This document shows positions 34,267 through 54,746 of a DNA stretch of 64,000 bases, in pieces (the first letter of the stretch is position 1; each line of letters opens with the position of its first letter). The DNA lies in assembly GCA_013297655.1 (NCBI GenBank), contig JAAFHV010000008.1:1-64000 (forward strand), given 5' to 3'. A program made the translations under genes and the position numbers. The notes below the pieces were generated by a model, which saw only the letters and a program-made list of their open reading frames with translations, did not search any database and was not told where the DNA came from. This DNA is from Myxococcales bacterium (GTDB taxonomy: Bacteria; Myxococcota_A; Polyangia; Polyangiales; Polyangiaceae).

Positions 34267-34420
34267 CGCGGGACGTGTCTTAGCAGAGAGTTACGGCCGC
34301 GAGACACACGACCGTGACGTCGACCTCGTGCAGCGTGGCCAACGCGTCGCGCCGTCACGATTTATTTCGGGAGGGTTTCGTACCGTCGCCTTAAGTGGTG
34401 CTAAGAACGGGCGCGTTCTT

Positions 34421-34472
34421 GGCTCCCTCGCTTCGCTCAATAGGCAAGCCGGTCGCCAGCGCTCCCTTGCAT
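34421..34472 (+). repeat. Dispersed repeat copy upstream of gdhA
   Basis: The 52-bp stretch contains GGCTCCCTCGCT-CGCTC, GCCGGTCGCC and GCTCCCTTGCAT in the same order as a segment on the minus strand at 54280-54222, inside the large inverted-repeat element. The blocks are 17 of 18, 10 of 10 and 12 of 12 identical, separated by diverged spacers of different length. It lies 60 bp before the gdhA start in the gap 34267-34531, which otherwise shows no gene. Confidence 0.5.
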
Positions 34473-53290: not shown

Positions 53291-53740
53291 ATGACCCAAG
53301 CTGCACGCCGAACGCCGAACGCACCGCCCGCACCGCCACCTTCGTCGAGGCATTTCTCGGCGCGGGTCGACCGGGGGATCGTCGGCTCCGAGGGCGATCG
53401 CATGCGCGAGTCGGGCATCGTTCCGATCGCGCCGGTCTACTCACCCGCTCACGACGCGCCGGTGCACGACATCGGGGTAGCGCCGCTCCGCCCGCCGCGC
53501 GTGAAGCTGGTCGGCCCTGCGCGCGCCGCGATGCCCGCGGGCCGCGTCACGCTGTGCATCTACGGCTGGCAGAACGTGCAGCCTGGTCCGCTCTCGTGGG
53601 TGTTCCCGAGCTTGTCTGCCGCCGTCACTGCCGCGCAGGCGATGCGAAACGCGACGGATTGGATCGTTTTGGAGGGCCAGCATTCGCCCTCCGAGATCGC
53701 CTGGGCCCGGTCGCGCGCCCCCCTCCTAGCCTCCAGCTAG
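53291..53740 (+). CDS. Conserved hypothetical protein
   Basis: The 149-residue protein starts at ATG 53291 behind a GGGGGAG site. Its first 85 residues are Pro/Ala/Arg-rich and look disordered. The C-terminal part (RVTLCIYGWQNVQPGPLSWVFPSLSAAVTAAQAMRNATDWIVLEG) is a compact strand-helix-strand unit. No family is recognised. Of the 300 bases upstream (52991-53290), the last 100 are distinctly AT-richer than the region and probably hold the promoter. The gene ends at the left edge of the large inverted-repeat element. Confidence 0.65.
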   Translation: MTQAARRTPNAPPAPPPSSRHFSARVDRGIVGSEGDRMRESGIVPIAPVYSPAHDAPVHDIGVAPLRPPRVKLVGPARAAMPAGRVTLCIYGWQNVQPGPLSWVFPSLSAAVTAAQAMRNATDWIVLEGQHSPSEIAWARSRAPLLASS

Positions 53741-54356
53741 AAGGCGGCCTGCTTTTCGCCGATAGCTTCGCCCTGGCGTCGTCGGACGTCCTCACCGACA
53801 GGAGTCGGTTCCGGGCGATCCTCCTAGCCAGGGCTCGCTCCACCCCTTCGGGTGCTTTCAAGGATCGTCGACGAAAATCAGGCCACCTTCTCTCGTCCCA
53901 TGACGCTCGCGGACTCGCCGCGCGGGCTCGCGGACTCGCCGCGCGGGCTCGCAGACTCGCCGCTGGTGGGGACGCGACGCTCGCGGAGACCCGACGCTCG
54001 CGGGGACGCGTGGCTCGCGGAGACGCGTGGCTCGCGGAGACGCGTGGCTCGCGGGACGACGCGACGCTCGCGGAGACCCGACGCTCGCGGGGACGCGTGG
54101 CTCGCGGAGACGCGTGGCTCGCGGAGACGCGTGGCTCGGGGGGCGACGCCGAGGCCCCGCGAGGCGGAAGGTAGGTGGCATTTCGTCGAGAGCGAGCCCT
54201 GGCTAGGAGGATCGCCCGGTTATGCAAGGGAGCCGAAGGCGACCGGCATACGTTTGGCGACCGAGCGGAGCGAGGGAGCCATTCCACGAACTCCTGTCGG
54301 TGAGGACGTCCGACGACGCCAGGGCGAAGCTATCGGCGAAATGCCGCCTGCCTTCC
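53741..54356. repeat. Large inverted-repeat element with internal tandem repeats
   Basis: Two long arms are inverted copies. A 52-bp block (53754-53805) is repeated without mismatch in opposite orientation at 54290-54341. An inner 30-bp block (53811-53840) is repeated the same way at 54190-54219. The right arm carries an extra segment of about 70 bp (54220-54289) related to the repeat at 34421. The outer ends (53741-53753 against 54342-54356) match imperfectly. The interior (53841-54189) is occupied mostly by tandem repeats and has no convincing gene. It resembles a non-autonomous mobile element or a structured repeat cassette. Confidence 0.85.
53905..54144. repeat. 21-bp, 17-bp and 87-bp tandem repeats
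   Basis: Three 21-bp units beginning GCTCGCGGACTCGCC lie at 53905-53967. From 53971 the sequence is built of 17-bp units (consensus GACGCGTGGCTCGCGGA, about ten copies). These are organised in a higher-order 87-bp unit present twice, at 53971-54057 and 54058-54144, almost identical. Unit lengths of 17 and 87 show that the copies grew by slippage or unequal exchange rather than under coding constraint at the 17-bp level. Confidence 0.85.
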
Positions 54357-54431: not shown

Positions 54432-54746
54432 TCACTGGATGAGATCTTTGAGAGCCTTGAGAGCCGTGGCGCGGACCTTTTTCGAGGCCGGCTTGCCCTT
54501 GATGGTGATGTTCTCGCCCGTGAACGGGTTCTTGCCCGGACGGTCCTTCGTGGCGGGCTTCTTCACAGCCTTGAGCTTGAGAAGTCCGGGAATCACGAAC
54601 TCGCCCGGTCCGCGCGAGCCGAGCTGCTTCTTGATGAGCTCGGTGAGACCGTCGAACACGCGAGCGACGCTCTTCTTGTCGAGCTCTGCGCCCTCGGCAA
54701 TGTCGGAAATCACTTGGGCCTTGGTCAACCGCTTCGCTGCAGCCAT
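54432..54746 (-). CDS. HU-family DNA-binding protein
   Basis: The 104-residue protein starts at ATG 54746 behind a strong AGGAGGA site. It has the HU/IHF layout: helices LTKAQVISDIAEGAELDKKSVARVFDGLTELIKKQL, then strands FVIPGLLKLKAVKKPATKDRPGKNPFTGENITIKGKP with the DNA-intercalating GKNPFTGE arm, and a final helix ASKKVRATALKALKDLI. The first residues are Lys/Arg-rich (MAAAKR). It bends and compacts DNA. A terminator follows. Confidence 0.96.
   Translation of the reverse strand: MAAAKRLTKAQVISDIAEGAELDKKSVARVFDGLTELIKKQLGSRGPGEFVIPGLLKLKAVKKPATKDRPGKNPFTGENITIKGKPASKKVRATALKALKDLIQ

Follow-up and report, generated by a model that had tools for sequence, protein, structure and literature searches.

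Two ERIC-like hairpin units, probably mobile, near the 3' ends of convergent genes in a Myxococcota genome

The locus

The window is the whole stretch of DNA that was analysed, 64,000 nucleotides of contig JAAFHV010000008.1 from a Myxococcota genome of 9.9 Mb, assembled as a draft of 546 contigs. The features that matter here lie between two convergent genes. Bit scores in the list are from R2, a covariance model built from 56 diverse matches with no enterobacterial sequence among them.

53291-53740, + strand: upstream ORF, 149 aa, stop codon TAG at 53738-53740, no Pfam match
53739-53893, + strand: left ERIC-like hairpin unit (R2 74 bits over 53739-53860), with the apical core CTCACCGAC-AGGA-GTCGGTTCCG
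53841-53867, + strand: optional 27-bp insert (CACCCCTTCGGGTG...) in the 3' strand of the left unit's stem
53894-54165, no strand: spacer between the units, with tandem arrays inside
53905-53963: tandem array, 21 bp x 2.8
53953-54138: tandem array, 17 bp x 10.8
53971-54149: tandem array, 87 bp x 2.1
54166-54356, - strand: right ERIC-like hairpin unit, facing the left unit (R2 76.8 bits)
54220-54289, - strand: the right unit's insert module of about 70 bp, close to its apical hairpin
54432-54746, - strand: convergent gene for an HU-family DNA-binding protein (PF00216)

An earlier note on this DNA described a single cassette with perfect inverted arms around a rapidly changing core of about 350 bp of tandem repeats. 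The arms are there: 53811-53840 and 54190-54219 match over 30 nt at 100%, and the outer arms, 53740-53805 and 54290-54355, are 94% complementary over 66 nt, with their inner 52 nt perfect. The repeats between them are real as well (53905-54149), at a length of about 245 bp, so the earlier figure was slightly high. The extra segment of the right arm (54220-54289) is related, at 77%, to 34420-34472 (- strand), as had been noted; that stretch lies outside any hairpin unit. What the earlier reading missed is the hairpin nature of the arms. Alignment shows each arm to be self-complementary and about 125 nt long. Half of the cassette is thus what matters as a unit, and the window contains two of them, opposed. 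The picture of one cassette with a changing core does not survive this, and arrays of the same kind are also found at single copies.

An R2 scan of the window places these two units alone above noise. The first two bases of the left unit are the AG of the upstream ORF's TAG stop. The right unit is downstream of the HU-family gene, whose stop is 75 bp away. The inserts recur elsewhere: the 27-bp insert is common to the left unit and to units at L013, L014 and L019, and the module of about 70 bp is also present in units at L011, L012 and L015. At L042 (2070-2195) this module stands alone as two tandem copies. A third unit of the family lies 22 kb past the cassette on the same contig (76534-76686, - strand; L010 2035-2187); it carries a 29-bp insert, and a stop codon falls within its first bases.

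Structure of the hairpin family

We describe the family with R1, a covariance model built from alignment A1 of 31 units from the host genome, 124-127 nt long and each forming one long hairpin. The unit is an imperfect palindrome of about 125 nt with fixed internal mismatches. Its apical core, TCAC-stem-n4-stem-YTCC, is conserved, while the outer stem changes rapidly between copies yet stays complementary. In A1, 28 of 40 pairs show double compensatory change and standard pairs fill 96% of cells, against 80% in shuffles; none of 500 shuffles reached the observed values of pairing and covariation, and sliding the structure by one column drops pairing below 50%. Some units carry inserts of 27 bp, 29 bp or about 70 bp at fixed places. 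In the host genome the units mostly start with AG or GA after the T of a stop codon and finish with a CCTCC or CCTTC type of end.

The same design holds among 149 matches from outside the host genome. Bases of the apex stem that the search left unconstrained are complementary in 137 of these, where 9 would be expected, and GCGTY upstream together with GCCTY downstream occurs in 29, against 1 with the sides swapped. No Rfam 15 family matched the units at its gathering score. A binding site for CsrA/RsmA (an ACAGGA loop) was considered and ruled out, since the tetraloop is unconserved outside some genomes.

One could read such a structure as a functional cis-regulatory 3'-UTR RNA under selection at each gene, the copies being old and their shared sequence reflecting a binding protein and not mobility. 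We regard this as a serious contender that we nevertheless lean against, and the structure itself speaks on both sides. Below the apical internal loop a T stands opposite G, T or C, and this non-Watson-Crick position is kept in 141 of the 149 units from other genomes, which favours this reading. The variable pairs of A1, however, include 28 G.U cells against 884 Watson-Crick cells. From this we infer fewer wobbles than a purely RNA-selected structure should have; such rare intermediates are unexpected if selection acts on RNA only.

Copy number and position

The arms are not confined to the cassette. A genome-wide sequence search gives 110 matches at about 40 loci, far beyond chance, and the covariance models give 61-70 matches (R1: 70), so the host genome holds about 55-70 copies. 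Positional statistics were compiled for 58 of these units from individual loci with GC3-based gene calls. A same-strand coding stop lies within -25 to 150 nt of the unit in 43 of the 58, and the unit starts no more than 15 nt from such a stop in 38. The modal offset is -2, so that the last bases of the stop codon are also the first bases of the unit. Only one of the 58 has a recorded convergent stop equally close to its 3' end. One unit in the genome lies directly 3' of a tRNA-Leu gene. At L036 (about 2011-2300) a second hairpin, with GCTTTTCGCCGAT-type ends of its own, splits a unit; apparently one hairpin element has inserted into another.

These positions bear on the idea that the whole locus is a single composite element, built like a transposon from long terminal inverted repeats around a variable core. 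Tail-to-tail pairs of units do occur at eight loci, 108-482 bp apart, as that idea would have it. Most units are single, however, each is a closed hairpin starting behind the stop codon of its own gene, and the spacers vary by locus and contain locus-specific repeats. We consider a composite cassette very improbable. The place of the units behind stop codons, often those of housekeeping genes (guaB, eno, argB, etfB), is also what a cis-regulatory RNA would show.

Tandem arrays 3' of the units

Within 220 bp flanks, and at a TRF score of at least 50, a tandem array lies 3' of the unit in 28 of 49 cases in the host genome and 5' of it in 0 of 52. Because the 5' side is usually coding, we added a comparison of intergenic gaps at a score of at least 60. 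Arrays are present in 14 of 27 gaps that bear a unit and in 8 of 76 that do not (Fisher p = 2.8e-5); some of the array-bearing gaps without a unit contain unit fragments. A relative in the same family, G028, gives 10 of 18 unit gaps against 0 of 17 without units, and the same gap comparison shows no association in G244 or G243. The periods are locus-specific (14-107 bp), and between the hairpin and the start of the array there are mostly 3-60 nt. The arrays are thus a lineage-specific feature of the 3' flank and not the interior of a cassette. The repeats between the two units of the window would be local expansions that accumulate in intergenic DNA 3' of hairpins.

Filled and empty sites

Evidence on movement comes from a genus whose gene content marks it as alphaproteobacterial; 61 of its genomes were examined. 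In the etfB-etfA gap 11 genomes have an element directly 3' of the etfB stop, and 19 other loci compared have a spacer of about 30 bp without it. At argB the site is filled in some genomes and empty in close ones; the clearest filled copy has CCCT on either side, in this one case alone. What differs at these sites is one exactly bounded unit, gained or lost, and the presence and absence at argB and etfB-etfA show insertion directly 3' of stop codons. The earlier note had offered a mobile element or a structured RNA. Its direction was right: the units are dispersed, they covary, and they are present or absent at orthologous sites of other genera.

Both sites argue against a cis-regulatory RNA held at each gene, as does the strong patchiness among related genomes. 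The guaB gene of another genus supports that reading: a hairpin of this kind stands behind the stop in 30 of 30 loci, with compensatory changes among the orthologues. Since it is conserved through the genus, some copies must be old and retained, and not all can be recent insertions. Yet the guaB-guaA gap within one genus (L281-L310) has several unrelated hairpin types, by outer stem, at the same position behind a single stop codon, which suggests repeated replacement or a hot spot and counts against a regulatory RNA held at each gene.

The same comparisons weigh on the proposal that the element inserts into terminator hairpins that were there before, the variable outer stem being target DNA. 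Such an origin would account for an outer stem that varies yet stays complementary, and the copies are located where terminators lie. The empty etfB-etfA and argB sites have no such hairpin, however, and in the alphaproteobacterial genus one outer stem is common to copies at different loci. We think it quite unlikely that terminators supplied the stems.

Probably the window contains two copies, independent of each other, of a short ERIC-like mobile hairpin that is non-autonomous; they lie near the 3' ends of convergent genes and would be transcribed in the 3' UTRs. The hairpin inserts directly behind stop codons, as its position and the filled and empty sites of other genera show, and would spread by insertion at the DNA level, with the machinery supplied in trans. 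An inserted copy would then be transcribed with the upstream gene as a 3'-UTR hairpin, and by analogy with ERIC in Yersinia, for which passages of PMC2229807 report an effect on upstream mRNA stability, it may change the stability or decay of that mRNA.

Distribution across bacteria

An R1 search of 59 genomes, the host's included, found units in 17 and none in most, with a patchy pattern among family relatives. Counts outside the host genome include 34 (G028), 21 (G024), 19 (G051), 15 (G003), 12 (G008) and 11 (G010). The apex pattern CTCACNNACAGGAGTNNGYTCCG was searched in GTDB genomes; among the matches listed it is mainly in Myxococcota, and also in Desulfovibrio-type genomes, Desulfospira, a Nitrospinota MAG, Mariprofundaceae, Bacteroidales and Pseudomonas segetis. 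The named carriers of the host genome's own subtype are mainly Polyangiaceae/Myxococcales MAGs among the matches listed. Allowing any tetraloop (CTCACNNACNNNNGTNNGYTCCG) gives matches in 36 of 398 Pseudomonadota genomes, where a reversed-pattern control is near zero, 13 copies in Desulfospira and 21 in the Nitrospinota MAG. The apical motif is thus present in Pseudomonadota, Desulfobacterota, Nitrospinota, Bacteroidota and Myxococcota.

Several single loci deserve mention. An Actinomycetota-binned MAG contig has a copy of the host genome's subtype at 134.8 bits (L095 1468-1591, - strand), which is either bin contamination or a transfer. Hairpins in direct tandem occur in Pseudomonas segetis (L118 1699-1814 and 1930-1962), and G422 has three copies in direct tandem with a 125-bp period (C7:364098-364370). 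Two different Desulfovibrio-type genomes share an identical 111-nt hairpin (L096 5468-5578 and L052 5178-5288); the next 70 bp or so on the 3' side are also nearly identical, and the upstream sequences differ.

What a wide family would mean

Strain typing has relied on ERIC repeats for a long time. Descriptions treat them as elements of enterobacteria, and their mode of movement is a matter not yet settled. We offer a wider reading of our data as possible and no firmer than that. ERIC would then be a single lineage within an ancient superfamily of hairpins that is spread through the bacteria and targets stop codons. Its members would be recognised by their apex and moved in trans by an enzyme of many phyla, with 3' tandem expansion promoted in some hosts. 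Recognition would probably be as single-stranded DNA, because G.U pairs are near absent. If the superfamily is so wide, comparison across many genera can fix the rule of insertion immediately behind stop codons, as well as the invariant apical structure and the 3'-UTR effect, and phyletic profiling can point to the mobilising enzyme. The family is missing from Rfam 15, so many 3' hairpins of this sort probably go without annotation. In mainly open-access literature we found no description of the apical sequence or of ERIC-like repeats in myxobacteria or alphaproteobacteria. ERIC itself is known; its wide host range is apparently undescribed there, as far as we could find.

Comparison with known systems

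REP elements are palindromic intergenic repeats that lie mostly downstream of coding regions (PMC3733652), and in these respects our units resemble them. It is nevertheless very doubtful that they belong to the REPs or REPINs and owe their movement to a RAYT (Y1) transposase. REPs are units of 20-40 bp with an unpaired 5' GTAG or CGTC tag and a short stem, 8-9 bp in the CGTC type; our unit is a long hairpin of about 125 nt, has neither tag, and is conserved at its apex. Y1_Tnp (PF01797) has 0 matches in the host genome (G000) and in the copy-rich G003, G008, G010 and G051. RAYT mobilisation was rejected for want of a Y1 transposase in these five genomes.

YPAL/RU-2 of Yersinia, about 168 bp, is closer in kind: a miniature insertion with a long hairpin, found at filled and empty sites, for which passages of PMC2229807 describe a possible influence on upstream transcript stability. 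It differs in that the printed RU-2 (PMC2759123), compared by eye, does not have the TCAC...GCTCC core, and YPAL has target duplications of 3-26 bp. As for integron attC sites, with their R'/R'' boxes, we noticed no conserved terminal box in our units.

The closest system is ERIC (also IRU or RU-1, 127 bp). A 44-mer composed of the two ERIC primers is present in 5375 of the 5426 E. coli genomes searched, and the ybhI and cusC copies of E. coli start directly 3' of the stop codon in the orientation of the window's units. R1, built from the host genome alone, ranks four E. coli ERIC records (representing two loci) first, at 14-19 bits, three of them matched over a 127-bp span. R2 recovers 4 of 4 at 26.8-35 bits (E 3e-5 to 3e-7), with no other match within those records. 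On this ranking the units match ERIC-like elements, and the earlier view that they fit no known class has to be given up. The printed ERIC consensus (PMC2759123) is TCACTTAC-TTAT-GTAAGCTCC with GCGTT upstream and GCCTT downstream, and the features TCACTTAC-n4-GTAAGCTCC and GCGTT/GCCTT fall at places that match our family.

The likeness to ERIC thus takes in length, imperfect palindromy, multiple copies, variable presence, an apical TCAC-stem-n4-stem-GCTCC core with GCGTT/GCCTT flanks, and an intergenic place directly 3' of stop codons. The differences are also clear. ERIC has 5' TA 3' at both termini and a TIR of 7 bp (PMC2229807, Table 1), whereas TA termini are absent from the host genome's units; the pair beside the apical loop is in another register; the outer-stem sequence is unrelated and identity is low outside the core. 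Our family's hosts are Myxococcota and other phyla and not enterobacteria, and it has insert modules of 27, 29 and 70 bp and 3' tandem arrays. The match is one of motif and structure, not of simple sequence identity. Judged from sequence comparison, the family looks homologous to ERIC at the level of the core, and the two appear to belong to one superfamily with relatives in many phyla. Since it has no TA termini, we file the family as ERIC-like and not as ERIC proper.
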